Part shown: positions 19,107-51,975 of the stretch, piece by piece | Layout of the letters: each line of letters begins with the position of its first letter | Numbering within the stretch: the first letter of the stretch is position 1 | Assembly: GCF_039555335.1 (NCBI RefSeq) | Contig: NC_092628.1 | Location: 30,227,409 to 30,291,408 of the forward strand | DNA length: 64,000 bases | Origin: Amphiura filiformis | Lineage: Eukaryota; Echinodermata; Ophiuroidea; Amphilepidida; Amphiuridae | Direction of reading: 5' to 3' | Notes under the pieces: generated by a model | Database searches by the model: none | Told to the model about the DNA's origin: nothing | Seen by the model: the letters and a program-made list of their open reading frames with translations, nothing else | Program-made: the position numbers and the translations under genes

Positions 19107-19182
19107 AAAGAAAGAAAGAACGCCAAGAAGACAGTACAAGCCGACGTTCGTCATCGGCTTGTAAGAACCTGTAAGAAAAAAG

Positions 19183-19201: not shown

Positions 19202-19215
19202 CCCATAGCAAAAAA
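19202..19215 (+). repeat. Left terminal inverted repeat of the large transposon
   Basis: CCCATAGCAAAAAA, then more A residues. It is the exact reverse complement of 51960-51973. Confidence 0.92.
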
Positions 19216-19221
19216 AAAAAA

Positions 19222-19680
19222 GGTAGCGGGTAACTACCTGCTGGTTATCGGGTGGTTACCGGAAACCTTGTGGGTATCTTTTTGAAGGTATCCGGAAGTA
19301 TCCGCTAGTGGATAACTTTTCGGATACCTATCCAGAAGGTACCCACTGAAGTGGGGAGTTACCCGATAGGTTTCCAAAAACTTATTGGTCAAAAATAGGT
19401 ACCCGTAAAGGTTCCCGGTAACTTAGCCCCACAAAAAAGGTTATCCGCAAGGTTCCCAGAAACTTTTTCATTGAAAAATAGGTACCCGCAAGGTTCCCGG
19501 AAACTTATTCATTGAAAAATAGGTACCCGCAAGGTTCCCGGAAACTTATTCATTGAAAAATAGGTACCCGCAAGGTTCCCGGAAACTTATTCATTGAAAA
19601 ATAGGTACCCGCAAGGTTCCCACAAACTTTGTCATTGAATAAGAGTTACCCAGAAGGTTCCCACAAACTTCTTGCCTGAA
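19222..19680 (+). repeat. Left subterminal repeat cluster
   Basis: Many variants of GGTTAYCCGG, GGTATCCGG, GGTACCCGCAAGG and GGTTCCCGGAAAC lie here. Four copies of a 41-bp unit start with GGTACCCGCAAGG at 19481, 19522, 19563 and 19604, nearly identical. The same short core occurs at the right end. Such clusters are where the accessory protein binds in plant CACTA elements; binding here is inferred. Confidence 0.85.
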
Positions 19681-20759
19681 AGGCTACCTCTTACTCTATG
19701 AAAAGGCTCATCAAACTTGAAAGCTACATGTACATACAAATAAAGGAATGATTTGAAGCCATAATGTACAATCTTATAATATGGATTATTAGTAATATCG
19801 GTACTAGTAATTTGATAACCTGATTTTTTGACATACTTGTAATGTTTTCGCATGTGCCAACTTGCACCTAGAAATCAATGAAACCATCGAAATTGGCAGA
19901 TTATGGGCGGTGGGCCAACAAAGCAAAGTAAGAAATACAGTGCAAGTCATAACAGCCTGTACATGTATAAATTTCAGAGGGCAGAAACCCTTCCCGACAG
20001 GTAGCATTTTGAGTATAGAATAACAAATTTAAAATGTGAAGGAAATCGTATAATTATTATGGCTTCAATACTCAATGTATTATTTAAACTGGTGGTGACA
20101 GCTTTAGATTTGTAACAAGTTTAACATCATTACCAACATACCTACAAGAAAAGGAAAAACTGATATAGCAAAATTCATGTTTTGAAGTCATTTCATTTAT
20201 ATTTTATTTTTGTCATTCATCAAACAATCAGAACAGATACAACACAATAATGATATTAATATTGATCTTAGTAGCAATAATGATGATGGCAGTTTCAAAA
20301 ACAAATACGGAATGATAAAATTGTGGTTGATTTACACAAATATTAATACCCAAACAATGCGAGCATCAAATCAAGTAACTTTTCTTCCAAATTTGTCTCA
20401 GAATTTAATGATTTTAGGCAAAAACTAAAACAAAATTAATTTGCAGCTGACATGGATGCGCCCAGCTTTTGAAATAAGGCGCGTCCTTGCGTCAAATACA
20501 TGTGAAAGTAGGCGCGGACCCGTAAATTTCCTACGGTTCATGTCCACATTACTCGTAAAATAACAAAACAATTGGCTTTTTTTAACCTAAAACATTTGAG
20601 AGTACAATTTTGCAGCTGTTGAGTGAACTCCCTGTCCACATTGTCATTAATTTACTTCAATCGGTTATTTCTTAGCAAAGGAGACCGGAAAAAACCCACC
20701 GTTTTACGGACTGACTTTTCAAGTGTGGTCGGTAGGTCAGGATTTTTATTTTTTCCTTC

Positions 20760-20939
20760 TGCTAGGATCATTAATGGTTGACATAAATTTGATTTCAAAA
20801 TGGACACAAATTCAATGCATTTTGAAATCATTATAATAGAGTATACATGACATGAAAAGAAAAATACTTTACTGTTACATACATATATTAAAAATACTAG
20901 GGCCTATTTTCTTAATGTCAACCATTAATGATCTTAGCA
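20760..20939. repeat. Short palindromic repeat (MITE-like)
   Basis: AGGATCATTAATGGTTGACA near 20764 returns inverted near 20915-20936. No coding content. Confidence 0.55.
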
Positions 20940-21723
20940 TTTAGCTCTAGGTCCAGGGACACTCAAAACGCAAAAACTAACATTTTTTTCCCCTTCTTTA
21001 TATACCTTTACACAGGCAACCAACTGTATTGTGGTCCGTTTAAACAAATAACCGTTAATTTACACCCCTATATGATTTTTTTGACCAAAAATTTCAAAAT
21101 CAATCAACCTGGGCTAAAAACAGCTGATATTACATGATTTAGCTAAATAATATATTTAAAAAATCTCCCACAATGCAAATCTAGATCGGTTGGGACCGTA
21201 AAACAGGTTGTTTTGTACTAACATGTATCATTGCCAAGCAGCCTCTTTTTTTTAACAAGTCCTTACCACTTACCAGGTAGTTTTCATTGTTCTCTTGATA
21301 TTTGATTGCTTCAATCACAGGAACCCAATTGTCGTACTTTAAGTTTGAGAGATTGAGTCAAATCCCAGCTTGTACACTTTCTTAATAATCAAAGGCTATA
21401 AAATCTTAACATCAAATTATTAAAAGCAAAACAGATTTGATGTCTTTAATGTAAGTTTCAGATTAAAAAAAAAAAAAAACTAAAGTCTGACAAGGCTTTA
21501 AAGTCAGAAAGTCTGACAACCAGCATCCTTTGCGGTAAACAGAAGATCGTCACAACATCACCAGTGTTGAAAAAGGGAGTCTGCTAGACTAGGAAACGTC
21601 CACAGTGAGTACTGTTTTATTGGACTAGAACTATATGAAATCTTGTTATAATCTGACAAGAACTGTCAGGCAAAACACAATTGTGATTTCATTTGTAACA
21701 AAAGTACACATATATGTCTTTAA

Positions 21724-22080
21724 GGGGGTACTACACCCCTCGATAAATTAATGTCTATTTTTGCATTTTTCTCAAAAACTAATAACACAGTGGTAACAAA
21801 AGTTATGTATATTATAGGGGCAAGGAATCCAATTACTACACTGGAATTTCAGTGACCCAAGACAAGCGGTTCGTCATTTATGATAAAAGAGGTACCGCTA
21901 GAATGTACCTCATTTCCTATCATATATACTGAACCGCTTGCCTTGAGTCACTGAAATTTCAGTGTAGTAATTGGATTCCTTGCCCCAATAATATGCATAA
22001 CTTTTGTTACCAGTGTGTTATTATTTTTTGAGAAAAATGCAAAAATAGTCACGAATTTACCACAGGGGTGTAATACCCCC
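21724..22080. mobile_element. TTAA-flanked palindromic MITE, copy 1
   Basis: The element starts GGGGGTACTACACCCC and ends inverted, GGGGTGTAATACCCCC, between two TTAA tetramers (21720-21723, 22081-22084). Almost its whole 357 bp is a palindrome with a short centre. TTAA duplication is the habit of piggyBac-type transposases. It sits inside the large transposon. Related copies are at 28238-28590 and 61855-62206. Confidence 0.8.
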
Positions 22081-22850
22081 TTAACTGGATCGGATGTACC
22101 CCTACCTAATAGATTCATCTATAACTTAAAATTTTATGCAGATAACCTTCGTTTTTGCAGTTATTCAAATATTGTTGCCTTAGCTATAAAGTATAAATAG
22201 CTGTAAAATGTTTCAAATGGTTCCCACAAATTATCACAGAGACTATGAAGTTGGGAAGTCTGAATGACATGTTGTCTAATATATATAATTATATACATTG
22301 TACATGTACATCTGACCCCTCTCTTTTTCACCCATAATTTCAATGTTACAAATACATGTAATGGAACATTCTTGTCATGGTGGACCATTAAGTCAACAAT
22401 CATACCAATAACATACTGGTAAATAAAATACATATGACAGCGCATAATGCCGCACATCGTCATCATCCCTATATCTTCGTGTCAAAAATTGCCGTGATAG
22501 TACGACGAATCCTCTCGTTTTTCAATAGCTATGCATGGCAATTTTGTTCGAGATAGGCCGAGCGACTCAGGCTAAGCATAGTACGTCTATCATATGAGAT
22601 ACCACCAACTTCTATTCTATACATTATTACGATTTGCGCATGCTCTAGTATCCCATATTTTGAGAATTACAATTATAAATATAAAAGAACACATTTAGCC
22701 CATCCAGCTGCTTGTATAGAATATTCGATCGGGCACGTGTATATCACAATGCATATATATGTAAACTTTCTTTATCTGTGTCAACAATAGAATATTGATC
22801 ACCAACGGAGTATCGAGCTGTATGAAAAAAATATTTATAATACAGGGTGT

Positions 22851-23371
22851 TGACACTGTGCAGCGTTCAAGCTTTGACTTATGTTTGGCACACAGAATGG
22901 TGGAAACTAAGTAAGTGAAAGATATCCTACTTAAAGGAACATTTTCTAGGGTGAAATTTTGTGTAGAAACTGAATCTGATATAAAAAAAATGCATAATTA
23001 TTAATCAACTTGAAAATTTTCCCCATAGCACTATACAGGCATATTTCTGCCCAAAATCCTCAAATTTGAGCGAAAATTTGCTGTTAAAAAAATAAGTCCT
23101 TCAAAATGGAGAAATATTATGGATCCCATTCAATGCTTTTAATATCACAACTGTACCCTTGTTACACAATTAGCATAGAAAATTAGGCACTATTTGATAG
23201 TGTTCATGTTCATACACTCACAGGAAATTAGCAAGTCAAAATTTTTGTCACCCTAAAATAGCAATTTTCGGCCAAAATCGGACAAAAACCTTGGAAACAT
23301 AAACCTTAAATAATTTTTTCGCACATTTTTCCGCCAAATGCAAGTCAAAGCTTGAACGGTTATCACTGTCA
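22851..23371. mobile_element. Non-autonomous element with inverted ends
   Basis: TGACACTGTGCAGCGTTCAA followed by GCTTTGACTT at the left returns inverted at 23341-23371 with a few mismatches. The interior is AT-rich with no gene. The type is unknown. Confidence 0.55.
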
Positions 23372-23451
23372 TATCAAGAGAGATGCAGTTCTTTAAAGTG
23401 TCCGAATGTACATTCAACCTTTATGGCTCCAACCTGAAGACTATAGAATCT

Positions 23452-23715
23452 TCAATCAAACTCATGCATGTTTGCAAACTCACATACAAAGTGTGTATCT
23501 TCAACACATTCACCAAAATACACATCTACACATAATGCTGTTATATCTTTTGCTTTTACTACATCAACAATGGTAGTTTCTTTCAACTCATGAATATGCC
23601 TAATGCTTACATTCAAAAAATTCTCTACTCCTGGAAATTCAGTTATTTTTAATAGGGTGCAAGCTTCCATCCTCTGTATAAAAGCTAAAATGTTCCATAC
23701 ATGCAGCACGAACAT
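23452..23715 (-). CDS. C-terminal part of the tnp2-type transposase, shifted frame
   Basis: On the minus strand the frame reads HVWNILAFIQRMEACTLLKI and ends DTHFVCEFANMHEFD before a stop at 23452. This resembles the natural C-terminus of invertebrate tnp2-type proteins. It overlaps the last ~30 bases of the main exon in another frame. A one-base shift near 23690-23705, just after CMCKAEQCSC in the main frame, would join them. A tiny unrecognised intron is the alternative. I cannot tell a true mutation from a sequence error. Confidence 0.55.
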   Translation of the reverse strand: MFVLHVWNILAFIQRMEACTLLKITEFPGVENFLNVSIRHIHELKETTIVDVVKAKDITALCVDVYFGECVEDTHFVCEFANMHEFD

Positions 23716-26167
23716 TGTTCTGCTTTACACATGCAATTTGGCAGGTTTTCAGCATAAAATGACACACGTCCAAACTGTACATTGCCATTTAAGAAATATT
23801 TTACTGTGTATGAGTTTCTTTTAACCACACGATTATAAGATGTTGAATGGAAAATAGAATTTCCCACTATAAGCCTATTATAGAATACCAATTTTCCAGG
23901 GGGTTCCTCTATACAATGCATGATGGCGCCAAACAAACCGCTGCTTATAGCTTTTGTGTAGCCTTTGCCAAGAGGTTCAATATGAAGTGAAGAAACCTTT
24001 CTGACAGACTTTGTTCTCTGCATTTTGTTAATAAACATGAGCGTCTTTGAGTTTTTCGGTAAATTTTGTATCATTTGCGGTAACAGATGGAGTGTATTAA
24101 CTGCACTCATTATCTGCATCTCAACATTTTGCGTACCATGAAACAACTTTAAGATCTGCCCATTGGCATCTTCAAATCCAAAACAATTAATTGCCCATAA
24201 GGGACCTGTATGAACCACAGTTTCTGGTAAGTGCAGTAATGAGTGCAGGTTTAACCCACAATATCTACTACCGTAAAGGGGCTCAAACATGAAAACAAAG
24301 TACACAAGATTATTATAACTTTTCTTTATGTCATCAGTAGAAATAGAAGAACCTGACAGAAGGTGTATAGCTTCAACAAAACATGCATAATGATAATAAA
24401 ATGTTTTCTCCATAAGGTCTGCCAAAATTGGAAGTGAATAATACAGCAACCATGATCTGAATTCAGATGCTTTCCAATACTTGAAATGAGCACCAAGTGC
24501 ACGTGGTACCCGCGAGATATTATGGGTAACCTTTATTGCCAAAAGACGGGCATCAACAACTGCAATATCGGAATATACACTGAATGCTTCTGATGCATTT
24601 GCAGATGTAAACCATAAATTAATCAAAACCTTTGAAATACCTAAAAGAACACCATGCATGTAGTCAATTACTGATCCCTGTACAAAGCTATAGGAATTCA
24701 AGGCCAATAAAAATGATGGGCCTTTGATGCCATTTACAGTATTTTTGGAATCAAAAGCTGCAAGTGCATCATGTACACACTGAGATTCTGTCCTTTGTGG
24801 ACCAGTAGGGTCATCTTTAATGAAAGGGAATATGTGAATGTTGCCACCTGCTGCAGTTCTTTCATTTCTACCAGATTGTAGACATTTCAAACAACTATAC
24901 TTACCATTGAATTGATTCATGTTCATGACAGAGCTTTTTGCGGGAAGATCAGCACAACCAAAGAGCATGAAAGCCTTTGAATTGACTGTTTCTCCATGTA
25001 CTTCTACATCAATGCCCTCTTCCTCTAAGATTTTCAGATCTCTCAGCAAAGGCTCCGTAAATCGAGGAAAAACTGGTTTGGAATCCCCAAACCATAACCC
25101 TGCAAATACCATGTTCTCCTTTCGCATGCGGTATTTTACATCCAATTCATTAATAGACAAATAAATAGGCCATAAAGAAAATTTAGAAGACTTAAATACT
25201 GGTACCCCATCAGTGTTCCAGCAGAATGATATGTTGTATGGATTGCTTAGCGGTCCTTCATTATCAAACATGTTTTTGTATATTTTTCCATCATACAAGT
25301 CTTCAATATTATTTTCAGTTGACTTTTTTCTATTAAAACGGTGCTGCAATTTCTCAAAAAACCCATCCCTACCAAACAGGTTTTTTATTTGGTTCAGTAT
25401 GGACATTTCTACGAAATACAATTTCTTTTTATCTTCTAAGTTTTCTTTACAAAATTCATTTGGACATGTTAAACTTTCACTTGTTATAGTGCCAAAACAT
25501 TTGTGACAAAAGAAGTGCTTAACAAGTGGAGTTTCAATGTCAGCAAAGTATTTCCTAAAGAAGTAGAGGCTTCTGAAAGCTGGGTGTGACTGTGAGTCAA
25601 GCATAAAGTAGCTAATGAGTGTTAAAAGATCAGACAATTGGGTTCCTGTGATTGAATGAGCAATCGAATAAGTAAGTATCAAGAGAAGTGCAAAGTGGAC
25701 GCTCAACCAATGTCCGCGATAAATTGGCCTATCTGATGCCTCCTTTGTGGAACTATATGGGTCTGTAGTGCTACCTTCTTCAGCCTCACTTTCATGAGTT
25801 TCATCCAACTCATGCATGAACTCATACCAATAATGCTCATCTGGCTGAGTGATATCATCTTCATCCATTTGTTCAATAGGCTGATTAATTGAGAGGAGTT
25901 CTTGAATTTTGGTTGAATATGTCTTACTTGGTATTGATGATTCTTCTTCAGCCGCCATGGCAGAGTCAAATACAGAATGTGTAAGTTGATCTGAAGCACA
26001 CGGTGTTGAGAAATTTCCTTCCAAATGGCATGAATGGGTGGAACTACTGGATCCATAATTGTGTGTTTCATTATATTCAGATGAGTTTATTGTATCTACA
26101 TGTACATCACAATCTTCAGTACCATCAAAGGCTTTGCTGGATGATTCGCTGGACACTCTTGCAGAGG
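23685..26167 (-). CDS. tnp2-type transposase, main exon
   Basis: This exon gives about 827 residues of transposase. Counted from the GTG at 26156: an acidic, Ser-rich N-terminus (1-145), a zinc ribbon (Cys 217, 220, 231, 236), then the RNase H-like tnp2 core. Core landmarks are WNTDGVPVF (Asp316) with KFSLWPIYLSINEL, CADLPAK (Asp403) with NQFNGKYSCLKC, and DYMHGVLLG (Asp498, the tnp2 'D-x-MH' motif). A DUF4218-like part follows, with HSLLHL and GPLWAINCFGFEDANG (Glu662). The Asp/Glu set fits DDE catalysis of cut-and-paste transposition in the nucleus. The exon has no good ATG at its start; the acceptor TTTTTACTTAG at 26168 joins in phase with 27023-27298. The in-frame stop at 23685 follows an apparent frameshift. 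Confidence 0.88.
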
Positions 26168-27022
26168 CTAAGTAAAAATAGAGAGATGAGATGTAGGAAT
26201 ATATACATTAGGAGATGAAGACTCAAGGTCACCCAATTTATATGTCTGTCAGTCACTGTGTGTTCAGACCAAGGTTATATTTTACACACACACTTCAATT
26301 GCAAACAAATGCTCTGAAAAAATGTGGAACTGCCGGAGAGCCTGAAAATGGGACCCCTGTCCGCCGCACGTACCTGTACCACCTTCACATGTGAGTGCCC
26401 CCGCCCTATACAAATTGATATATCTTTTTTTCTTTGTTGATTAATTGTATAAAGGTCCATTGCTCAAGATAACTCAAGAAAGCTGTCTATGAAGCTTATT
26501 TTCAATGTGGTCCATCCCTTTGGGTATGGTGTACAAACAGCCAGGAGTTTCCCTGATCGGATCTGGGCGCATGGTTTTGGCATCCACTCCATCCACCCTG
26601 GAACAATTCAAATGCAGTGATGGAGATTTTTGCCTGCACTGATACATAGCTCTAGAACCCGAGTCTAAAGACCTCAACTGATGGACCACATTGATCTCTA
26701 TCTACATGTAACTTAATATAATTTACCACACCATATGGGCCATTCACCAGTAGTCACATTGAAAATAGTACCCTTGAATGTGCCTATCGCATCCGATGCA
26801 TGCATATACTTCACAGTTCACTGCAATGCATACTTTACAGCTATTTTTTAATTTTGACATTTTGGGGAAATTAATAGAATTACTTTGTATTTAAAAATAA
26901 GTTCTATAATATTAATAACTGGAAAGTGGATGGACACTTCAACCGGTTTCACTTCAGTCCACACAGATGAAGGGTAAATTGGGCAATGCTACATATGGCA
27001 CCGTTACATTTGTTCAACTTAC

Positions 27023-27298
27023 TTGATGAATCTTGTTCTTCAGCAGCTAAAACAGCAGGGTCAGAATGTAAGTCTGCATTGGACAGCAGTGCCAGTGATA
27101 AATTCTCATCCGAATGAAAAGGAATAACATCATCACTGAGATCGCTAGATGACTCAATCTCATTTTGTATGCCATCAACTGGAGTACTAACAGAGTCAAT
27201 TGATGGTAATATGGTTGTTCTAGATGTCCTGTAATGAATTGGTCGTACTTGATTTCTACTGTTGACAAGCCTGGCCACTTTACAACAAGCTTGTATGT
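27023..27298 (-). CDS. tnp2-type transposase, exon 2
   Basis: The acceptor TTTATTTCCACACAG before 27298 and the perfect donor GTAAGT after 27023 define a 276-bp exon. It encodes IQACCKVARLVNSRNQVRPI, later SSDLSDDVIPFHSDENLSLA and ends EEQDSSS. It is acidic and low in complexity, with no known domain. The final A joins CC of the main exon to make Thr, and the first AC joins G from exon 1 to make Asp, so both junctions keep frame. Confidence 0.75.
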
Positions 27299-28237
27299 CT
27301 GTGTGGAAATAAAACAAGGGAAGAAAAGATAATGTAAACAGCTTAGATGTAGCCTACATTAGTAAAAAGCTATTACATAAAATTAGATGAGTACCCCCCT
27401 CATTTCTGCCATTGATCCAAAACCCAAGAACAAAGAAGAAGAGAAATGTTGGACTCAACATATAAAAACAAAATGTCAAAAACACCAAATGATGTACATG
27501 TATATAGGCATTACATATAGAGCTATAAATGCCATGAACCGCATGAAATTTATGCGCAATTTGCCAATTTCATTTATTGCATTTTTGGGCCACTTTTTAT
27601 AGTCAAATGTCTTTTATCATATGTTTCTTTTTAAAGAAACACATAAATAAGAAAATGAGCCAGGGACACAGACAAACACCACAGGTGTATTCAAGATATC
27701 CTCATCAGGTCAATGACACATTGTCGATTTAAAAAAAAGATGTCATGTAAACTGATGTACGGTACTGTATCAGTGTAAATTATAAAAAATAAAACCACGC
27801 AACCTCCTCACTTTTCCCAAAATGTGAGGATGTGAAAAAAATTATGTGAAATATATGACTTTTATATGTGGCCTTCCCTTAATTTTTTTTTAAAAGTCGC
27901 ACACCAGTACGCATCAACAATTTTAGCTCGAATCTAAACATGGGATGTGTAATCCGATGCTTGTAGCCATGAGAATGTCAAGCTCCAATGTGCACGCATA
28001 TTGCTACGCCTACGGCATACATGTATGACTATATGAGGAGAGATCGGAGCTACGAAATGTATCACAAAACGTGTCAGAAGCATGACACCATGTAAAGCAA
28101 TCAAAATTTGGAAAGTAAACACAGATCTTACTCGAGAACTCTAACTTTAATTTGCACACGATAGTTACGCATTCAATGCTCGAGTTCTTTGCTATGGTTT
28201 TTCGGTTGGACAGCGGTGCAATTTTTTATTCGGTTAA

Positions 28238-28590
28238 GAGGGTACTACACCCCTGGCCAATTTTGTGCCTATTTTTGCAATTTTCTCAAAAATTATAGTG
28301 CATTGGTGACAAGTAAGATATGTATATTATAGGGGCAAGGACTACCACTACTGCACTGGAAATTTTATTTCAACACAGACAACAGTTGTGGAGTTACGGT
28401 CAGAAATGAGGGAAAACCAAATCAATAACTACTTGCCTTGAGTTGCTGAATTTTCAGTGCAGTAGTTGTAGACCTTGCCCCTATAATCATGATAATATTC
28501 ATATCTTACTTGTCACCAATGCGCTATAATTTTTGAGAAAAATGCAAAAATAGGCACAAAACTGGCCAGGGATGTAGTAGGCCTACCCCC
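28238..28590. mobile_element. TTAA-flanked palindromic MITE, copy 2
   Basis: GAGGGTACTACACCCCTGGC at the left and its decayed inverted copy at the right lie between TTAA at 28234-28237 and 28591-28594. It is inserted in fold-back copy A. Confidence 0.8.
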
Positions 28591-28708
28591 TTAAAATGTT
28601 GAAATTTGGATGAAAGTTATTTCGATGAGTCAACTGTGAGCAATATTCACTGAAGCATGACACCGTGTAAAGCAATGGAAGTTCAAAAGTAAACACAGTC
28701 GATCACGA

Positions 28709-28911
28709 CAGGCCTGGTCTTTTGAGGCGAGTGAGAGTGATCACTTTCGCCATCATCACTCGCCTAAAATGAAGCGGAGGAGAGCTTTTTATCACTCGCC
28801 TACATTTGGTGTAATAATACAAGTGATTAAAATCACTCGCCACAGCTCACCTGGCAAGTTTTGAGGAGAGTGATTTGTCACTTGCCAGCAATTTTCAAAA
28901 GACAAGGCCTG
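28709..28911. mobile_element. CAGGCCT MITE, copy 1
   Basis: The ends CAGGCCTGGTCTTTTGA and TCAAAAGACAAGGCCTG are inverted. TCACGA, perhaps TCACGAC, is repeated on both sides. The interior repeats GGCGAGTGAT-type words. A copy in opposite orientation is at 38377-38566. Confidence 0.75.
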
Positions 28912-29548
28912 TCACGACGGGCGATATCGCATTAAAAATGTTGCTAAAATTGCACTTCAAGTTCAACAAAATTTTGGACTGTTTAAAATAGGCAATCTTT
29001 AATCAAAAGATACAGTTGACTCATCAAAATAACTTTCATTCAAATTTCAACATTCGCAGAGTAAATAACAACCGTGCAAAAAATGTCAATGTTGACGGAC
29101 CAAAATCGAAAAACAATAGCAACATACATGTACTCTAGCATCGAATGCGTACATGTAACTATCGTGCAAATTCAAAGCTAGTAAAAAGTGACTGACCCAT
29201 GATTGGTATGATTTTGAAGCTTTGAAATTGAAGTTGCCTGCAAGTCATGACTCGACGTGTCACAACCATGTCCATGATGATTAAGTACCGTACTTGAAAT
29301 GTGCGAGTTGACGCAGCTAGTACCGAAAATAATAATTCCTTGATCCCGAGTCTAGCCTGAGAGTATGAATGTACAGCGTAATGTTGCAAGTTTAGTGGAA
29401 TGACACAATAGCGCGATCGATTGTGCACGCACGTAATGCAATGCTACCCAAAGGCATGAAAGGCGTTGTACGCTCTCGCAATTGTCATTGCGTGCCGATT
29501 GAGCTCTCACTCAGGATCGAGAAACTATTACTATAATCATAGTAATAT

Positions 29549-29702
29549 TAGAGAGCTTATGAAATGACGTAACTTTAACGTCTAGAGGATTATAGAGGAT
29601 TATGTATTCAAAACCACCTTGGTTTTGAATACGTCACAATCCTCTAGACATGCTAGACGTTAAAGTTACATGTAAAGTAACGCTCATTTCGCAAGCTCTA
29701 TT
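29549..29702. repeat. Inverted repeat / hairpin
   Basis: GACGTAACTTTAACGTCTAG near 29566 returns inverted near 29645-29670, and the outer AGAGCTT/AAGCTCT words also pair. It lies just downstream of transposase exon 1. A small MITE is likely. Confidence 0.55.
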
Positions 29703-29779
29703 ATTTTATATGTTACCCCAATCAAGAATGAAATATTTTGAGTATAAGTGGCACTTTAAAAAGGCATACCTATATATAC

Positions 29780-30154
29780 CTATATCTGCAGAGTTATCTT
29801 CGACTTCGTCATGTTCGTCCCGTCACATCTTCTTTTTGCATTTGACTTTGAGACATCCTCATTATCAATTTCATGCTCATGGCCCTGGGCGCCGGTAGCA
29901 TGACTAGTATCGGTAGTATTATCACCACGAAGTAAATTTGCAATGCATTGACTGTATGAACATGATGATGTACTGGGCATGTCTGAACTTGAAGAAACAT
30001 CATGCTGCCGAGGAGATATTTCATTATTGGCAATGGCATGACTATCATGACTATCAGTATCACCACCATCATCACCACCACCAGCACGACCAGGTCCAGC
30101 AGAGGTTTGGCATGTCTGGTTGCTGCCCATCATCTGTTCACAGTTGTCATTCAT
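29780..30154 (-). CDS. tnp2-type transposase, first exon, with apparent frameshift
   Basis: The ATG at 30154 opens a frame rich in Ser, Asp and His (MNDNCEQMMGSNQTCQ...). It runs to ...SKSNAKRRCDG and then into a stop at the exon's end. The donor GTATAT follows 29780. A second frame over the last ~45 bases reads RDEHDEVEDNSADI, and only this frame matches the phase of exon 2. A one- or two-base shift near 29815-29825 therefore seems to separate start and rest. An undetected alternative first exon could also explain it. Confidence 0.5.
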   Translation of the reverse strand: MNDNCEQMMGSNQTCQTSAGPGRAGGGDDGGDTDSHDSHAIANNEISPRQHDVSSSSDMPSTSSCSYSQCIANLLRGDNTTDTSHATGAQGHEHEIDNEDVSKSNAKRRCDGTNMTKSKITLQI

Positions 30155-30949
30155 TATATCAGTGATATTATTTTATGTGGTTGAAAATTCTAACCACCAT
30201 GCACGCATGTACCAGTACCAATTCTAATCTGAGCCGAGACGGGAATTTTTTTCAGACTCGGTTGCAAAATTTTGCAGGCTTGCAGGTATGGTTAAATTGA
30301 AGTTAAATCTTGTTTGTATACATTTTGACGCAATATAAACGAACGCGTAATTAGAAAACATCTCTGTATCAAGTAAAAAGATACCAATTAAAACTAATCA
30401 GTATCAAATTACCATATCTGTAAATCTTTTAGACACAAGAAACATGAACATAAAATAATCTTTAAAAAAAATTACTTTAACCGCATAAAAACAAAATCAT
30501 TTCAGCTGGGCGGTTTGCTATAGTTTTTATGCTATTTCTTTTTCAAAACGAAGCTCCAAACGACAAGGTACTATATGTCACATGACCCCATCAAAGATGA
30601 CTCATCCAACATATTTTTGCTTAAAAACAGTAATTACACACGAACTGAAGCGGAAAATCAATCATAAATGTAGTTTTAATATTGGGTATGGGATATCTGT
30701 ACGCAATCGATTAACAAAATTGAAAAACAATACGCTGCGCAGTCGTTTTGGGGAAAAATAATTTGACACATATCTGATGACGTCATCATTATAAGTGCTC
30801 ATAAACAAGTCGCGCGCTCATTTCAATAATAAATATAACGGTTCGCCGCTATTTCCGTTGTACACACGTACATGACACTACGACTAGTTTCATCTTTTAT
30901 CGATCAATATTTTTGTGCAGAAAGGTTTTCAAACCATCTTTCCAGTACC
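30155..30949. promoter_or_regulatory. Shared divergent promoter region of transposase and BEN genes
   Basis: The two first exons are head to head with 795 bp between start codons. No TATA box or single motif could be singled out. A bidirectional promoter is inferred from the layout only. Confidence 0.45.
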
Positions 30950-31157
30950 ATGTATTTCAGCATAGTTTACTTCCCTAGCGACAACAGTCTCTACGTTTGC
31001 AACAACAAAGAAATTGGCTTAATTAATAAGGACAAGCCAAAACTCGGCCAAAGTGTATTTAAGAATTTTTTTGTAGACCATGAAAATGACCCACCCGACG
31101 GGAAGTTTTACAGGACAAGTGACCCATTCGAGGGATTCGTTATCTATGAAGATGAAC
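30950..31157 (+). CDS. BEN gene exon 1
   Basis: Encodes MYFSIVYFPSDNSLYVCN through DPFEGFVIYEDE; the donor GTAAGT starts at 31158. An in-frame upstream ATG at 30872 would add 26 residues. The first ~70 residues look like a compact beta-rich domain, not recognised. Confidence 0.8.
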
Positions 31158-43100: not shown

Positions 43101-46100
43101 TAAGAAAATTACACCTGTTTATTTTCTATTTGATTATATGTTAAAATTTATATTACATTTTTTACAGGTAAGGAGAATGCTGGCAATCAAGAGAACTGTG
43201 TAAAGAAACAAAACACAGGTGGTAAGTCAGAAGTTTACTCTAGTTGCCTTCACAGATAAACTTGGACTGTTGCGTCTGAGGCATGGTATGATTGGATGCA
43301 ATTTAACATTCCAAGTTTATCTCTGCAGTCAATACATATGTACATAATTTAATTGATCAAATCTGCCTGTACAAATTTATAGACAAAATATTTTGTACAA
43401 AAAAATCTTTGAATGGGCCTCTAATATGTGCTTGGTTACAAAACCGGCAAACTCATGCTCCAATGATCACTCTCTGAAATGTTTAACTTTGTTTTTGCAG
43501 CGGCTATTAGGAAAGCGAAGAAAGAAGAAAAAATCGCTACAGCCCATGAAGCTTCAAAACAAGCAAAGGCGTTGATTGAACAAATTAAAAAGAGTAACTC
43601 GTCATCTCCACCTTCATTGGTCACTAATGCCACTCCCATTGTTCATGCACCCCCTCCACCTCATTCATTGGCCACTAACTCATCTTCTGTCACCACTGCC
43701 ATTGTTCATGCACCCCCTCCACCTCGTTCATTGGCCACTAACTCATCTTCTGTCACCACTGCCATTGTTCATGCACCCCCTCCACCTCCTTCATTGGCCA
43801 ATAACTCATCTTCTGTCACCACTGCCATTGTTCATGCACCCCCTCCACCTCGTTCATTGGCCACTAACTCATCTTCTGTCACCACTGCCATTGTTCATGC
43901 ACCCCCTCCACCTCATTCATTGGCCACTAACTCATCTTCTGTCACCACTCCCATTGTTCATGCACCCCCTCCACCTCGTTCATTGGCCACTAACTCATCT
44001 TCTGTCACCACTGCCATTGTTCATGCACCCCCTCCACCTCATTCATTGGCCACTAACTCATCTTCTGTCACCACTGCCATTGTTCATGCACCCCCTCCAC
44101 CTCATTCATTGGCCACTAACTCATCTTCTGTCACCACTGCAATTAAATATGCACCTCTTCCATATGTATCTCAGCCAGCAACCATTTCATTCCCTAGCAC
44201 ATCCTCTTCCACTTCTCTGACACCTAACCTTGATACTGCAACAACTCTTTTAGCCCTTTCAACATCCAATCCAACTCAGATCATGCATGTTCCACCACTT
44301 CCCAATCTGACACATGCACCACCTGCTTCTGCCATTCCTCTCTCATCTCCACCTACCAAGTATCCATCTCATCAGCTTCCCAATCTCACACCATCTCCAT
44401 TAACTCCTTTAATTCCTGCCTCAATCATGTCCTCCTTGCCAAGCAATGTCCCATCCCCTCCAATTTCTGAATTGCTTCGGTCTGTAAATGGAGATCTCTT
44501 TCCACAACAAGAAGACTGCATAGAATGTTTTACAAAAGAGGGCGAGATAGAGAGGCTGCGACAGGAAGTTAGAGAAAGGGATGAAGAGATAGAACGCCTT
44601 AGAGAGGAAGTCATTGTTGCTGCAGAGTCAAGGGAAGACGTAATTCAACGGCTGGAGGAAGAGCTCGATGCAGCAAGAAATAGAAGAGGTAAATGTTTGT
44701 TGATCTTATTCAATTCTGTGGTTTAACATGCAATAATGTATGATAACTTAGTCACAAATGAGGTGGGTAAGATTGACAATCTCATCCCAATCAAAATTGA
44801 GAAAGCCACCTCAAGCTAGCATCTGCACTTGTATGGACCAATAAGACCATATTTTTGACTTAAAAACTACTGGAGCTACATGTATACATAAAAATGTTCA
44901 TTTGATGGGCCTCCAGTACATGTAAGATAAAGTGATTATATGAAGTACCGTACGTACCTAAAAGTAAACACCTCATTCTGAGTCTACTAACTCTGCATCA
45001 AGTTTGTGAGGGACAGACAGATAATGTATTTTGACCCTCTCAACACCCCTCATATTGTAAAAGAATCAAATGTTGGGACTGTTACTCTTACAGGTAATGC
45101 TGAGATCAGAGCTGCAGTCGGCGCACCGCCAGTTCATCAAATCCCTCTTAATGACGATGACGTTTACCAACCACGAAGAGGGCCGAAAATTAATAAATGT
45201 ATATACGTAAGTACACAAACATAATACATGTGTATATACTATCTTTTGAAAGTGACAATCAATTAGTATCTATCTGTTTTAATTTAAGGACTGCATATCA
45301 ATGCAGTCATAAAAAAAAAAAAAAAATGAGTCTTACAAATGTATTGGTGTGACAGGTTGAATAAAAGTGAGGATCAATTCATTTCGTGACATAATGTTAT
45401 TAAATGCATAAAGGTTATTAATAGATTCAGTAAACCAGCTTTTACAAACATTTCAGTCCTCGCAAAAATGAATTTGAATATGTAAAATTCATGATGTATA
45501 AAGGTATGATATTTTATGAAATCTGATGGCCCGTTCTGAACTAACGCTGTTAAAATGTTATTTTTCTGATTCTTTCATTTTTTATAGAGAATACTGCAGC
45601 AGGGTGAACCATGCCCAGCAGGATATGATCAGATCGAAAACTCATCTCTAAGTGTGCCAACAGAGTGGTTGGCACAGATACTTTCCGAGAATAAAGCCAA
45701 GTCCCGCTCCCACACATTTAAAAAAATCCTAGAGTCGTTTTTCGAGCCAGACGAAATGGGTGGAAGAAACTCAACAAGTATGACAAAGAATTTTCCGGAG
45801 ATCATGAACCCCCTAAGATGTAAGTATACATGTATGAGGGTCTGATATTAGGAAAAATAGATAATAGTGTTTATACCTTCCTGGATTCAGTAATTTAGAT
45901 ATTGCTTTTTATTGTATCTCTAAATGTGATGATGAGAAGTATATAAAAGTAACATTTTCAGAAAGGAAATGATGCAAGGATTCCAACTAGCATAACACAT
46001 TCCTGCAAAAATTAGCAGTTTATCAGAAAATCTCACAATTGAATTTTACTTTGCTGACTCGAGGAAGGTATACGGACTATAGGGAAAAAATCTACCCGCT

Positions 46101-47598
46101 GGTGATTTTTTCACAAATTGGGTTTGTTTTGAATTTGTGATGTTATTAATGTTTTTCAAATATTGTCTGACAGTTTCCGATCAAAATATAACTGGCATCT
46201 TGTATTTTTGAGACATTTTTCAAGGCAATTGCAACTCTCAATATTGTCAATAATATTTCTAAAGGCTGATATCTCACTTTCCAATTTTATAATACCATAT
46301 TTTACGAACTCAAGATCTTCGCTTAGGAATGTCCGATTTCATTGGGGAAACCGGCGTTGTGGAGCAAAATATCTCCATATTTAAAGTCATAATGTACAAT
46401 CTTTTTTCAGAATTTACCTTTATTTTTTGGCCCGATATTTTGGCATATTTGTAATATTTACACATGTTCTAACTTAAATCTATGAGCAAACTGTCAAATT
46501 CATCCTATTTGTAGTAAAACGGGACGATTTTCTGTTGGTCCGACATAAAGTCATAATTTTTTAGATTATGACTTTATGTCGGCCACGATCGCAAACCGTA
46601 GTCTCGTACAAAACTACATGTAGCTTGGTTACGCTCCCTCCACATGTGGAGGGAGCGTAACCACGTAGGAGTCTAACTCTGAGGCCGCACTCGCTGTCCT
46701 AATCCAAATAGTGCGAGATGTTTCGAGTGATAGAGGTGAAGTTTATGATGTTGTTTCTTTGCAAATTCCCAATGTTTTCACGTCCAAATGTATTGGGAAC
46801 TTTCATAATGATTGCATATTATCATTTTAGAAGGGAAAAAAAATCTAAAAATGTAAAAAGATCGTACATTAAGGCTTTAAGATAAAAAACCTCGAAATTT
46901 ATAACCTGACATGGCACATCACATTTGTACTTCAATTGTGTAAATCAACCATGATTTTATGTTGTGTACTTCTGAACACTTGAAAATTACATTTGAACTC
47001 AAAATTAAGTTTTAAAAAAATCTTTTAAAAAAATGCATTCCACATTCGTTTTGAAACCGCCATTTGAGACAGCATTATTTTCTTTTAGCCAATGAAAAAT
47101 ATTCAGAGAATTGATGATGAACATGACATATGCTAACGGTGATCATGAAAAGGTGATTGTGGAGATATACTATTGGAGTTCTTGATGTTGAAAGTTTCTA
47201 ATTCTATAAATCCTGATTGTGTCTCAGGTAAATCATAGAACAAGTCCACATGCATGGTTCTCGTGGGTGCCCTTGTTTTTTTTTTTTTTTTTTTGGAGTA
47301 TACTTAATATATTACTTGGCTGTATGCCGTTTTTTCATTTGCAATAAAATATATTGAAGACGTAATCAATTTGAAATGATTATGAATGATCGCCACCAAG
47401 TATTTGATTTGTATATAAATCAACATATTTTAACAACTTGTGTTTGTATGTTTTTGCATTCTTTCCTTTGCAGTATTTGCGATCAACCAACTGAAAATAC
47501 AGCCGTCTGACCTGACAAGATACATTAATCAAAAATGCAACTCAATGAGCAGGTCAAACAGACGTCAGAAAGTCTCAATAGAACTTTCTTTGCTATAA
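30950..47598 (+). CDS. BEN-domain protein gene, ten exons, carried by the large transposon
   Basis: Ten exons join with correct GT/AG sites and phases to a 2,244-base reading frame (747 residues plus stop): 30950-31157, 37568-37747, 41247-41303, 41704-41754, 42113-42148, 43168-43221, 43501-44688, 45094-45206, 45588-45819, 47474-47598. Residues 1-129 form an unrecognised N-terminal region beginning MYFSIVYFPSDNSLYV. 130-195 are short linker exons, 242-409 a 21-residue repeat, about 533-591 a coiled coil, and about 656-744 a BEN-like domain. Known: BEN domains bind DNA and recruit chromatin factors. Inference: it is the element's own subterminal-repeat-binding protein. A longer start at 30872 is in frame, but MYFSIVYF looks like the true beginning. 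The coding frame is undamaged. Confidence 0.85.
31891..32554. mobile_element. Fold-back element copy B
   Basis: TGAGAACTCTAGCTTCGAAT at the left returns inverted as AAAGCTAGAGTTCTCGA at the right. The interior shows additional inverted words (GACTAGATTTTG / CAAAATCTAGTC). It is the uninterrupted relative of 28131-29181 and lies in BEN intron 1. Confidence 0.75.
33342..33560 (+). repeat. Diverged direct repeat, first copy
   Basis: Contains AGACTGCTTGATTT, CAGGCAATTGGTGAGAGACT and TTGCTTTCAGGTA. The same order occurs at 36342-36540, about 3 kb further in the same intron. Function unknown. Confidence 0.6.
33872..35892. mobile_element. 2-kb element with 29-bp inverted ends and recurrent TTCCGCTCACAT motif
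   Basis: GGCCCATTTCACGGTTAGGC followed by GCCACTTTT at the left returns inverted at 35864-35892. CAAT lies just outside both ends, suggesting a 4-bp duplication. The interior carries TTCCGCTCACA words near 34257, 34436, 34609, 34804 and 35338, most followed by GTCACATCC, plus an inverted pair at about 34960-35050 and 35127-35215. No gene was recognised, so it is non-autonomous. Confidence 0.7.
36342..36540 (+). repeat. Diverged direct repeat, second copy
   Basis: Partner of 33342-33560, with CAGGCAATTGGTGAGAGACT in common. A 70-residue frame across it has no recognised domain. Confidence 0.6.
37151..37353. mobile_element. CAGGGACTG MITE
   Basis: CAGGGACTGTCTGTTTTG at the left and CAAAAGGCAGTCCCTG at the right are inverted. 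GGGTTT is duplicated on both sides (6 bp). Interior words AGGAGAGCT recur. Part of a similar repeat lies at 39590-39660. Confidence 0.75.
37568..37747 (+). CDS. BEN gene exon 2
   Basis: The acceptor TTTTTTTACTTGACAG and donor GTAAGT bound 180 bp. It encodes KKHCNAKLELFEEEVGKILE and ends VNRDKFVAAL. The 6.4-kb intron before it holds several repeats. Confidence 0.8.
38377..38566. mobile_element. CAGGCCT MITE, copy 2 (opposite orientation)
   Basis: CAGGCTTTGTCTTTTGA at the left and TCAAAAGACAAGGCCTG at the right. The sequence is the reverse complement of 28709-28911 with modest divergence. Confidence 0.75.
38627..39332. mobile_element. Outer inverted-repeat element with nested MITE
   Basis: TTAATGGGTAAATTTTCATG followed by GGAAAATTTTCTGGACATG returns inverted at about 39294-39332. 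A second palindrome lies at 38924-39269 inside it. Confidence 0.6.
38924..39269. mobile_element. Inner MITE with TTAAGGCC ends
   Basis: TTAAGGCC, a poly-A run and TTGTGTTGCCCTCAA return inverted as TTGAGGGCAACACAACAA, poly-T and GGCCTAA. Confidence 0.6.
40762..41039. mobile_element. Palindromic MITE with poly-A interior
   Basis: AAATTGTTTGAATGGCGTAA at 40771 returns inverted as GTTACGCCAATTAAACAATT at about 41010. The interior is A- and T-rich runs. Confidence 0.55.
41247..41303 (+). CDS. BEN gene exon 3 (57 bp)
   Basis: Encodes ANERTGSTNMSSAGPSKGT. Acceptor TTTGCAG, donor GTAAGTG. Both ends are phase 1, so it can be skipped without a frameshift. Confidence 0.75.
41704..41754 (+). CDS. BEN gene exon 4 (51 bp)
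   Basis: Encodes EKEDNNTRAGSSQLHTN. Acceptor CCTGTTGCAG, donor GTAAGG; both ends phase 1. Confidence 0.72.
42113..42148 (+). CDS. BEN gene exon 5 (36 bp)
   Basis: Encodes AQNNGRKRTHAP, with the basic GRKR possibly part of a nuclear localisation signal. Acceptor CTTGTTACAG, donor GTAAGA; both ends phase 1. Confidence 0.7.
43168..43221 (+). CDS. BEN gene exon 6 (54 bp)
   Basis: Encodes GKENAGNQENCVKKQNTG. Acceptor TTTTTTACAG, donor GTAAGT; both ends phase 1. Confidence 0.72.
43501..44688 (+). CDS. BEN gene exon 7: proline-rich repeat and coiled coil
   Basis: The 1,188-bp exon starts after TTGTTTTTGCAG. It encodes a basic helix (AAIRKAKKEEKIATAHEASK), the 21-residue repeats, a Pro/Ser/Thr-rich linker, and a heptad-rich helix with EIERLRQEVRERDEEIERLR near its end. 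The donor GTAAATG follows 44688. The coiled coil suggests that the protein pairs with itself. Confidence 0.82.
43638..44141 (+). repeat. Coding minisatellite, 8 x 63 bp
   Basis: Eight in-frame copies of a unit coding for IVHAPPPPRSLATNSSSVTTA follow each other with a few substitutions (R/H/P at position 9). Near-identity at the DNA level shows recent expansion. Array length probably varies between copies. Confidence 0.92.
45094..45206 (+). CDS. BEN gene exon 8
   Basis: Encodes GNAEIRAAVGAPPVHQIPLN and ends RRGPKINKCIY. Acceptor GTTACTCTTACAG, donor GTAAGT after 45206 (phase 0). Confidence 0.78.
45588..45819 (+). CDS. BEN gene exon 9: first part of BEN-like domain
   Basis: Encodes RILQQGEPCPAGYDQIENSS, then WLAQILSENKAKSRSHTFKK, LESFFEPDEM and MTKNFPEIMNPLR. 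The helix with 'L..FF..DEM' followed by a polar loop matches the start of BEN domains ('LL..LFs.eeL..ss'). Acceptor TTTTTTATAG, donor GTAAGT. Confidence 0.75.
47474..47598 (+). CDS. BEN gene exon 10: end of BEN-like domain and stop
   Basis: The acceptor TTTCCTTTGCAG precedes FAINQLKIQPSDLTRYINQK, CNSMSRSNRRQ and a stop at 47596-47598. The helix ending 'INQKCNSMSR..RR' fits the C-terminal, basic BEN helix. Confidence 0.75.
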
Positions 47599-48200: not shown

Positions 48201-48250
48201 GTTTAAGGCATGGAATGACCCAATAGTTATTCCTTTTTAACTATTGGGTC

Positions 48251-48735
48251 AATCCATCTCAAATCACCTAATGGGTTGGCTGGACACCCTCTCAGATTTT
48301 GTTTAAAATCACTTATATCATAGCCCTATGTGCCAAATGAACACATTTCAAACGGTAGGTCTCTACTCCTTGTCGTTTCCGAGAACCGGCCTATTAAAAA
48401 TTGGGTCAGACCCCCCTTTTTGCTTACGCATGTCGATATCCATATCTTCCCCAAGGGGTAAGCTACAGGGCTACAAATTGGAATCTAGGGTGTCTTTGAC
48501 CCAAATAACAAGATTCTGGGGTCTGGACTAAAAAAAATGTACATGTCGCGAAGCGCGTGAGCAAAAAGGGGGGGATCTGACCCAATATTTAATAGGCCAG
48601 TTCTCGGAAACGACAAGGAATAGAGACCTACCGTTTGAAATGTGTTCATTTGGCACACAGGGCTATGATATAAGTGATTTTAAACAAAATCTGAGAGGGT
48701 GACCAGCCAACCTTTTGTGAAAACTAGGTGATTTG
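48251..48735. mobile_element. Palindromic MITE with GGTTGGCTGG
   Basis: Arms of about 140 bp: GGTTGGCTGGACACCCTCTC at 48274 returns inverted, ending at 48712. The inner ACCTACCGTTTGAAATGTGT pairs closely. Weaker pairing extends to about 48251 and 48735. Confidence 0.7.
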
Positions 48736-49414
48736 AGATTTACTAACCCTATTATAAAAGATAGTTTAGTAGTTTACTTCAATTTAAATGGAATCCACTG
48801 ACAGTGCCACTCACAGATAACAGTGGAGGAGTACCGACTCTGTTATTAATAGCATATCCTTTAAACATGCTGTGCTCTGAAAAGTATTTTGTTCTTCATG
48901 TATGTCACTATGTGTTGCGACTGATGAGTTTTTGCTCTGGTTGTTAGCCAAAGAAAGGGAAATATTCTTTCTGTACGTACTTGACCTGTTCATTGATTTG
49001 CATTTGTGGATTGCTGTTTTTTTACTTGTTTTTACATATTGCAGTGTATTGACTTATGTACGAAATAATTTACATAAAGCGCTAGTAGAGTACTGTATTT
49101 GTTTCATTAACCGCCCAGGGAGCTTGACAAACAAAATCATTTTTGTTGGGCACTTTGACATTGTTCAGGCCTATATTAAAAACAAAAAGTACAAAATATT
49201 CATCCATTATCATCAGTTATGTTTTGGACCAAGATTTTGATTTGCATGCATGGACAATAATTATTAATATCACAGTTTGCTTGTTGTAAAGTCCCTGGGT
49301 GGGCACATCTATACAGTTTTAGTTCAGAAATTGAACTATTATATACATTATATAATTTAGTAGTGTAGTAACAATGGTCCTACAGTGTTAAAGGGGCACT
49401 TTGTGATCCACATC

Positions 49415-49796
49415 CAGGGTCTTAGGCAGGATTTGAAGGTTTGGGTGGGTAAATTAAAAAAACTGGGTGTGTAGATTTAAGATTTGTGTACAAAGTATAG
49501 GCTAAGGACAGGAAAAATGCGTGATGCGCAAAAAACGCTGAAAATTTAGCATTTTGGATGCAATACAATCGCAGCATTTTAGGGCTGACCACGAAAAACA
49601 GTAAAAAAATTTCAATATTGCATATATTTGAACTTTTTGGGGAGAAAAATCATGCATTTTGGTCAAAAATGTGCAAATTGCGAATTTTTGCATTTTCAAA
49701 AACTGGCGTGCGCATTTTGCTCTCAAAAATAGCGCATTTTCCCTGTGCTTAGTATAGGCCATGTGGGCAAAAACTGGGTGTGTATTTAAGACCTTG
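49415..49796. mobile_element. hAT-type non-autonomous element
   Basis: The ends CAGGGTCTTA and TAAGACCTTG are inverted. The 8-bp TCCACATC is repeated at 49407-49414 and 49797-49804, as hAT transposases make. Similar sequence occurs near 39508-39580. Confidence 0.7.
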
Positions 49797-49804
49797 TCCA
49801 CATC

Positions 49805-51470
49805 CTCATCTCCCTCACTAAAAAGGTGATATTTTTTAATACCATCAGAAACATGGGATGATTGTGTACAAAACTTTGCAGATTCAGTCATTTTACAAAA
49901 GACCATTTGTCAATATGAATTTTGGGCTGGCAACATCCCAAAATTACAACACTGGCTTATGGGACTGCCATAATACATGCAATAATAATGTATAAATCAT
50001 TATCAGAAATTGATATCCAAATCAACTGAATTTTTTAGATAGGCTTCTGTTATGGATATCTATTTAGCATGGTAAAAACGAGGATCACAAAATACCCAGT
50101 AAACAGGGCCCAGGAATTAGGTTTGTGTCATTAGATTAATACAGGCTGGTGAATATTTTCTATTTAACAAGCTTCCTTGTTGGTATATGGAAGGTAAGGA
50201 CCAACTGCTCATCATAGACTATTTACTCTTTAGCAGATATGGTGCTGGTAGATGAGAAAATTAACTTGTACACAATTTTATTGTGTGACTAGATTGAGAT
50301 TCTGTAGTTTTAACTAATTTACAGGGAATAGTTTTTACGAGTTGCCTACTAAAATGGGGACTGTATTCTTAATTAAGCATTTAAGATTATGCCATACTCT
50401 TTGTAAAGATTGAGTGTGGTAGTGACATGATATAATTCAGTGGTTGCAATTTGGAATCATGCGCATTAACCCACAGCATATACATGTATACGTAAAAGGG
50501 CAGTTTGTTGGGATGCAACCACTTAAAAGGCGAAAAAGTGTATTAAATGTAACTAGGTAATGGTAAATTTTAGAGTTGGCAAAAACGTTGCTGTCAAACT
50601 CATATTGATTGGTAAGTATTTAATCCTTGTTGCATAAATGTAGAGCTAAAGGTTTTGTCATAGTTTTGTACAATGTTAATATTTGATTTGGGAAGAAAAT
50701 AACATCTGAAATGTTAACCTTATTTCAGTTTGCTTTTTGTATTACTGCAGGTGTGTTCTCCTTCCATTCTAGTACCATGGTTGCCCAAGTCAAAAATATA
50801 CCTTGTGCCGTTTTGAGTTTGGTAGTGGTGTCCTTGTTCTAGGTTGCGTAGTACGTTTACTCGCCTATCATTCTCGGAATCACAGCATAGTACACTATCA
50901 CAGCATAGTACACTAACTATGTAAAGGCTGCACTAGACCAGACAAATTTTGATGTCACTACAAAACTCAAAACAACAAAAGGTATACTAAAGTAGTTTGC
51001 AAGATGTGTCAACCAGCTCAACCTTTATTTTGATACTAGCTGCTATATCATGCATCCAACCAGATTCCTTAATTTGGTTAAAGCACAGAATATGTATTAA
51101 CCTAAAACTGGCATGATAAACAGTTACAGATTTGGGTCTTGGTGTTTTGGTGTTGATCCCATCATGCAAATGAAAGCCAACATTTTGTTATACTTGCTAG
51201 CAGTCACGTGAGAACACAAGTCCGCTTACTAATATACATATTACGTAAGAGTAATATCTTACTGTTCTCTGCTATTCTTCAATCGTATTGTAACTACCCC
51301 AGTGACATAGCCAGGATTTTACATAGAGAATTCAAGGCAGATGGTCAAAAAGGGCTAAAAATCTTAAATATAGCAGCTAGCATCATACAAGGGCAAGATG
51401 TTGCACAGAGCCCCCTCCTCCACTGGTGCAGTAATTGACCCCTCGATTCGATCTCTTTCCAGAAAATCTC
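49805..51470. other. Right non-coding part of the large transposon
   Basis: No gene or clear repeat recognised between the hAT-type insertion and the right subterminal cluster. Confidence 0.5.
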
Positions 51471-51955
51471 TGGATAGTTACCCGATGGTCTCCCATAGGT
51501 TCCCAAAAATGTGTCCATAAAATGTTGGGTTCCCAAAAGGGAAACTACCCGATGGTTATCCGGAAAGTACCCGATGGTTATCCGGAAAGCGCCTACTGTA
51601 GGTTCCCAAACAAAAGGTTACCCGGAAAGCACCCGATGGTTACCCGGAAAGCACCCGATGGTTATCCGGAAAGCACCTACTGCAGGTTCCCAAACTAAAG
51701 GTTACCCGGAAAGCACCCGATGGTTATCCGGAAAGCACCTACTGCAGGTTCCCAAAAGTATGCCATAAGAGTACCCGGTGGGTATCCGATAGTTACCCGA
51801 TGGTTACCCGAAAGTTTTCTTAAAGTAACACATATCCTCTGAGGTATCCGCTATTTTCTGAAAAGTTACCCGATGGTTTCCCGATACCTACCTCATTTGC
51901 ATGTGAAATTTGCCGGTGTCTACCCGGTGACTATCGGGAAGTTATCCGGAAAGGT
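51471..51955 (+). repeat. Right subterminal repeat cluster
   Basis: Repeated GGTTATCCGGAAAGCACC, GTTACCCGATGG and GGTTCCCAAA words, with near-tandem units at 51540-51750. The core GGTTAYCCG is shared with the left cluster and lies mostly on the same strand, i.e. in direct rather than inverted orientation. Confidence 0.85.
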
Positions 51956-51959
51956 CTGA

Positions 51960-51973
51960 TTTTTTGCTATGGG
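51960..51973 (-). repeat. Right terminal inverted repeat of the large transposon
   Basis: TTTTTTGCTATGGG, the exact reverse complement of the left end, followed by the duplicated GT. Confidence 0.92.
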
Positions 51974-51975
51974 GT

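Follow-up and report, generated by a model that had tools for sequence, protein, structure and literature searches.

What could have split a single hairpin of a repeat array in the brittle star Amphiura filiformis, leaving its two halves 32.8 kb apart and the intervening DNA bounded by matching inverted ends? The locus lies in a stretch of 64,000 nucleotides (nt) of contig NC_092628.1 (assembly GCF_039555335.1, positions 30,227,409 to 30,291,408), referred to here as the window, in which all coordinates are given. The insertion spans 19202-51973 (32,772 bp) and sits inside one hairpin of the local array. It is very probably a DNA transposon of the CACTA/EnSpm superfamily, of the TRC type described from animals, because it combines a match to the tnp2 transposase with CCC ends and a 2-bp duplication. 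The CACTA/TRC kind is itself already known; what is new here is the unusual size and a divergent, six-exon second gene predicted alongside the transposase.

The ends of the insertion and its target

An earlier note on this DNA had described 14-bp inverted ends with a GT duplication, and a hairpin which stops at 19201 and resumes at 51976. The ends and the duplication are exact to the base, and the bounds of 19202 and 51973 are set by terminal inverted repeats (TIRs; CCCATAGCAAAAAA and TTTTTTGCTATGGG) without a single mismatch. The features at the two junctions are:

19200..19201, no strand: left copy of the target-site duplication GT, from sequence inspection and the join of the flanks
19202..19215, plus strand: left TIR, CCCATAGCAAAAAA, 14/14 match
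51960..51973, minus strand: right TIR, the reverse complement of the left TIR
51974..51975, no strand: right copy of the target-site duplication GT, from sequence inspection and the join of the flanks

The split hairpin is one of five, with its left part running up to 19201 and its right part starting from 51976. The 30-mer GACACAGCCGTGACTAACGTCACGGCTGTG is found uninterrupted exactly four times in the window (at 14071, 16703, 19076 and 52006). When the flanks are joined without the second GT (90 nt), the product is 100% identical to the four intact hairpin places over 52-55 nt across the junction, so that the array sequence is restored. The join predicted for an empty allele at the insertion site is AACGTCACGG. 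An empty site had been reported within the window, and the four intact hairpins do preserve it exactly; however, they are paralogous copies of the repeat, and the empty site is therefore paralogous and not allelic.

TIRs and a 2-bp duplication are, on their own, not beyond chance in 64 kb. The window contains 323 exact inverted 14-mer pairs at a spacing of 5-60 kb, 50 of which have a 2-bp flanking duplication, and on manual sorting 36 of the 40 listed from these 50 were poly-A/T runs or lay in repeats identified in the window. Simulated windows (n = 8) held 16-30 inverted pairs each, with 0-4 showing a 2-bp duplication. The ends are beyond chance because TIRs and duplication coincide exactly with the hairpin breakpoints, which were located independently. 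The claim that both ends can be fixed to the base thus holds by way of these breakpoints, but not through the TIRs and duplication alone.

Further evidence comes from the DNA immediately inside the TIRs, where short motifs are concentrated in two zones:

19202..19721, plus strand: left subterminal repeat zone, with a 41-bp tandem repeat (6.8 copies) at 19391-19670 and 11 TAYCCG motifs in 520 bp
51454..51973, plus strand: right subterminal repeat zone, with 22/62/84-bp tandem repeats within 51540-51816 and 18 TAYCCG motifs in 520 bp

The 31.7-kb interior has 6 TAYCCG motifs and the 31.2-kb flanks have 11, while simulated ends (500 each) gave means of 0.5 and 0.8 and maxima of 3 and 5. All 18 motifs at the right end are on the plus strand, and 2 of the 11 at the left end are reversed. 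A second motif, AGGTTCCC, occurs seven times at the left end and four times at the right end, with none in the interior or the flanks. The sharing of these repeats between the two ends points to a single family, and it supports the earlier proposal that the element moved as one unit.

The array to the left of the insertion, at 11342-19201, is made up of repeat blocks which begin near CTAGACTTAGCTGTGG...CACGAACACAGCCGTG and continue with 146-bp repeats containing GACCTTTGACCCC. Several of these blocks close in a GAA-rich tract and the hairpin, the transposon's target, and the hairpin arm CACAGCCGTG is also present at five block starts.

The transposase and the kind of element

The earlier note had called the insertion a DNA transposon. 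In agreement with this, its interior codes for a CACTA-type transposase, on the minus strand:

23688..26167, minus strand: main exon of the transposase, in the open reading frame (ORF) 23685-26207 (840 amino acids (aa) stop to stop), with PF02992 over residues 320-453
27023..27298, minus strand: upstream exon of the transposase, with GT-AG boundaries and in phase with the main exon
29783..30172, minus strand: ORF of 130 codons, with a three-base periodicity of 60.0, between the two divergent gene models

Pfam was searched with 12 of the 26 ORFs of at least 90 aa in the element, seven shorter ORFs and pieces of the second gene model. Of the proteins scanned from the element, just the ORF 23685-26207 scored above the cut-off, matching both PF02992 (Transposase_21, tnp2; E = 7.9e-10, 38.7 bits against a curated cut-off of 28.6) and DUF1258 (E = 1.1e-8, 35.3 bits against a cut-off of 33.1). 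Matches below the cut-off to DSRB (0.045), Pox_E10 (0.083), SAWADEE (0.13) and CARD (0.14) were set aside as chance. Spliced to the main exon at 26167, the upstream exon 27298-27023 extends the reading frame to 918 codons without a stop. The Ser- and Asp-rich ORF 29783-30172 has no Pfam match; it may belong to the transposase gene as a 5' exon, or be a short ORF of its own.

EnSpm and related transposases have been described as having the motif order D, D, C(2)C, H(3-4)H, E (PMC12730594). A motif search of the 840-aa ORF finds TDG, ADLP, CLKC, HSLLH and FGFE in this order, giving a putative triad and accompanying motifs at D333, D420, CLKC 439-442, HSLLH 655-659 and E679, placed by motif and not by alignment to relatives. 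The C2C and H(3-4)H motifs thus fall between the second D and the E, as is characteristic of CACTA/EnSpm. The element also has the tnp2-type transposase of this superfamily (PF02992 above its curated cut-off), a duplication within its range of 2-3 bp (GT, with the target restored) and repeated subterminal motifs at both ends.

Animals and fungi carry CACTA relatives known as TRC elements (PMC1636069), whose CCC core at the ends and 2-bp duplication are both found here. Those described from Schistosoma mansoni (SmTRC1, 4.5 kb), Tribolium (5.2 kb) and Aedes (9.2 kb) likewise have a Transposase_21 domain, CCC ends and 2-bp duplications, and SmTRC1 also has a tandem-repeat region; unlike these, the present element is 32.8 kb long and has a TIR which differs past the CCC (PMC1636069).

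Several observations weigh against this identification, or against the intactness of the copy. The ends read CCCAT and not CACTA as in the plant definition, although this excludes the plant type only, since animal members end in CCC (PMC1636069). The transposase ORF contains three C2C and three HxxxH/HxxxxH matches, from which the one of each lying between D420 and E679 was chosen. The first (5') exon of the transposase model is uncertain. At the 3' end, the gene is overlapped by a minus-strand frame (23455-23724; no Pfam match) with raised periodicity (18.0), and because the ORF stops at 23685 while this overlapping frame shows raised periodicity, there may be a frameshift or an alternative exon, and the copy is possibly not fully intact. 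Alignment-free structure prediction of the transposase reached a predicted local distance difference test (pLDDT) score of 33.5. Comparison of the transposase with PDB sequences gave no match, and neither did NCBIfam profiles. By transposase, no second copy or relative was found in viral contigs, and the patterns of the subterminal repeats, the hairpin and the miniature inverted-repeat transposable elements (MITEs) had no match there. In prokaryote genomes there were 17 pattern matches but no relative, and no match for the MITE pattern. That no relatives were found in viral and prokaryotic collections is expected for an animal element. RNA families at gathering score and transfer RNAs were also sought in the window, and none were found.

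Polinton/Maverick (PMC8232201) and Teratorn elements are likewise large DNA elements in animals. The present element is unlike them in having a CACTA transposase and a 2-bp duplication, and polymerase, integrase, capsid and piggyBac had no match among the ORFs scanned with Pfam (12 of the 26 of at least 90 aa). The duplication of Polinton/Maverick is 5-6 bp, as against 2 bp here.

The divergent second gene

The model of the second gene (gene 2) comprises six plus-strand exons, read divergently to the transposase, with GT-AG boundaries, consistent phases and 681 codons plus a stop, with no internal stop:

30950..31157, plus strand: exon A, starting MYFSIVYFPSDNS, with donor GTAAGT
37568..37747, plus strand: exon B, 180 nt, skippable without a change of frame, the least certain exon
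43501..44688, plus strand: exon C, with Pro-rich 21-aa repeats followed by a charged segment
45094..45206, plus strand: exon D, by open frame, missed by the automatic exon scan
45588..45819, plus strand: exon E, by open frame and the automatic exon scan
47474..47598, plus strand: exon F, containing the stop codon and without a donor

Exon candidates were scanned with a control, the criteria being a pyrimidine tract, AG, an open frame, and GTAAGT or GTAAAT. Candidates of at least 170 nt numbered 19 on the plus strand and 16 on the minus strand of the element (4 and 2 separate places by our own grouping), and simulations (n = 100) gave a mean of 0.55 per strand. For all sizes the element had 22 on the plus and 18 on the minus strand, the flanks 4 and 2, while the simulations averaged 2.26 and did not exceed 13. 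The Pro-rich repeats of exon C are encoded by a 63-bp array at 43630-44144 (8.2 copies, 97% matches), while the charged segment looks like a coiled coil by its sequence, and several of the Pfam matches below the cut-off are coiled-coil families. Two copies of a dispersed repeat in opposite orientation (37243-37326 and 39589-39668) stand on either side of exon B; because of this position, and because it can be skipped in frame, it is the weakest exon, and a nested element at 37243-39668 is possible. A perfect 38-nt palindrome (46626-46663) lies in the predicted intron between exons E and F.

In the plant element En/Spm, the protein TNPA binds the subterminal repeats and is needed together with the tnp2-domain protein (PMC2613891). 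By analogy, gene 2 could encode an accessory protein which binds the subterminal repeats, a role that we consider possible while falling somewhat short of probable. Repeat-binding second proteins have little sequence in common between elements, even among plants (PMC2613891), so for a TNPA-like partner an absence of homology would be expected, and that absence is itself not evidence. On the other side, the splice sites were picked by eye from open frames, meaning that the agreement of phases was partly selected, gene 2 has no recognised domain in Pfam or among PDB sequences, and its role rests on analogy. Matches below the curated cut-offs to GMIP-like_FCH (0.0015, in the coiled-coil-like part) and Phage_holin_6_1 (0.032, in exon B) were treated as chance. 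A BEN domain at the C-terminus of gene 2, suggested by its appearance, was rejected with no Pfam match and no relevant PDB match; a fold model of exon E alone was of low confidence (pLDDT 57.9).

The ends, the duplication, the restored target, the homology of the transposase and the subterminal repeats in common are direct observations. Going by its superfamily, the transposase encoded on the minus strand would be a DDE enzyme acting by cut-and-paste, cutting at the CCC ends and joining them to a target with a 2-bp stagger. The gene 2 protein, encoded on the plus strand, is proposed to bind the TACCCG-like subterminal repeats, and would help to pair the two distant ends, as is thought for TNPA in plant En/Spm.

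The main rival for the role of gene 2 is that it is captured host cargo and not a transposition factor, which we think rather unlikely, though it has points in its favour. CACTA elements are described as capturing host gene fragments (PMC8978399), a multi-exon gene with long introns resembles a host gene, and gene 2 has no domain pointing to transposition. However, two ORFs have been reported for full-length CACTA elements, the function of one being unknown (PMC8978399), and the second proteins that bind the repeats have little sequence in common even when plants are compared with each other (PMC2613891).

It is also unlikely that the unit is mixed, with ends and transposase from one CACTA family, and gene 2 or much of the middle consisting of other nested elements, so that the autonomous unit would be far smaller than 32.8 kb. 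Several nested repeats are indeed present, exon B can be skipped in phase and sits between the two repeat copies named above, no homologue links gene 2 to CACTA elements, and an inverted pair of 14 bp at 27277 and 49292, flanked by a CC duplication, would enclose gene 2. Yet exons A, C, D, E and F hold one frame over 16.6 kb spanning nested repeats. The pair at 27277/49292 is given little weight because it occurs at the chance rate (0-4 per simulated window) and because its left end lies within the transposase exon 27023-27298. Longer inverted pairs around gene 2 were seen neither among the 25 longest of 29 listed nor in the repeat comparison, two scans which short ends would escape.

An assembly artefact, in which unrelated pieces were joined within the array, is highly improbable: the junctions do fall in a repeated hairpin, which is error-prone for assemblies, but perfect TIRs, a duplication of 2 bp and subterminal repeats that match, all at both breakpoints, would not arise from a false join.

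Nested repeats, size and significance

The transposon, taken as a single CACTA/TRC unit, carries the following recognised inserts:

21720..22084, no strand: nested palindromic MITE, with TTAA at both ends
28128..29190, no strand: nested family A MITE, right edge approximate, holding a TTAA-type MITE at 28234-28594
31886..32556, no strand: second family A MITE, with TA at both ends and an inner palindrome at 31967-32396
34956..35214, no strand: nested palindromic MITE-like repeat, from repeat and palindrome comparison
38376..38566, no strand: copy of a dispersed repeat, the other copy being at 28709-28912
48243..48752, no strand: nested palindromic MITE-like repeat, from repeat and palindrome comparison

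These six MITE-like inserts sum to 3,059 bp, or 9% of the element. The suggestion that later MITE insertions added to its length is therefore right, but their share is small (3,059 of 32,772 bp). Of the 16.6 kb covered by the gene 2 model, 2.0 kb is coding, so that predicted introns supply much of the bulk. Predicted introns and unassigned DNA together account for much of what lies outside the approximately 3 kb of MITE-like inserts. A reading of 28128-32556 as one nested element of 4.4 kb was given up, as the outer similarity is that of two MITE copies of one family.

The TTAA-flanked palindromic MITE is present in three copies (21720-22084, 28234-28594 and 61851-62210) which are 67-82% alike and end in approximately GGGGGTACTACACCCC; two are within the transposon and the third, at 61851-62210, is outside. 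A direct repeat of about 200 bp is also found inside the element (33341-33540 and 36339-36515; 75.6% alike, 3 kb apart). Beyond the right end there is an inverted structure of 4.3 kb at 54222-58519, whose arms (54222-55477 and 57273-58519) are 96.9% alike and whose inner arms (55886-56188 and 57017-57280) are 83% alike, with an ORF of 194 codons (56565-57149; no Pfam match) near its centre. Its appearance suggests either a fold-back element or a mobile gene duplicated in inverted orientation.

The sorghum element Candystripe1 is approximately 23 kb long. Rim elements are described as 14.1 kb on average. Plant CACTA elements include En/Spm (8.3 kb), Tam1 (17 kb) and Tgmt* (20.5 kb) (PMC2613891). 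Like the element described here, plant elements of the En/Spm type are large and have many introns; they encode a tnp2 transposase and a second protein for which binding to the repeats has been proposed, and they have a short TIR and subterminal motifs that are repeated and include GC-rich as well as AT-rich parts (PMC2613891). In contrast, Tgmt* has CACTA ends and a 3-bp duplication, as opposed to CCC ends and 2 bp here, and both En/Spm and Tgmt* make their two products from one transcription unit, whereas two divergent units are predicted here (PMC2613891). The enlarged En/Spm elements found in a red alga, Chondrus crispus (16-20 kb, with 4-5 ORFs), are likewise oversized members of the CACTA superfamily but, by their description, are set apart by host, smaller size and more ORFs (PMC6431247). 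SmTRC1 is described as making several proteins through alternative splicing, one of them from a second ORF, unlike the divergent second gene predicted here, and the available part of the TRC description shows no divergent second gene (PMC1636069).

A literature search, with most subscription journals outside its scope, found no animal CACTA element this large in the titles and abstract openings among the matches listed, which is weak evidence of absence. Tentatively, and with considerable doubt, this may be the largest structurally complete CACTA element so far from an animal, with a divergent two-gene layout in which a tnp2 transposase is joined by an intron-rich gene for a repeat-binding partner, evolved independently of TNPA, which would pair ends 33 kb apart.

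Cut-and-paste elements tend to move less well with growing size. A 33-kb member in which both ends and two gene models can be read raises the question of how such distant ends are paired, and its short subterminal repeats offer a direct substrate for a binding test. The preserved target shows cleanly what kind of site an animal CACTA element chose. If the gene 2 protein does bind the subterminal repeats, it would be an animal counterpart to plant TNPA.

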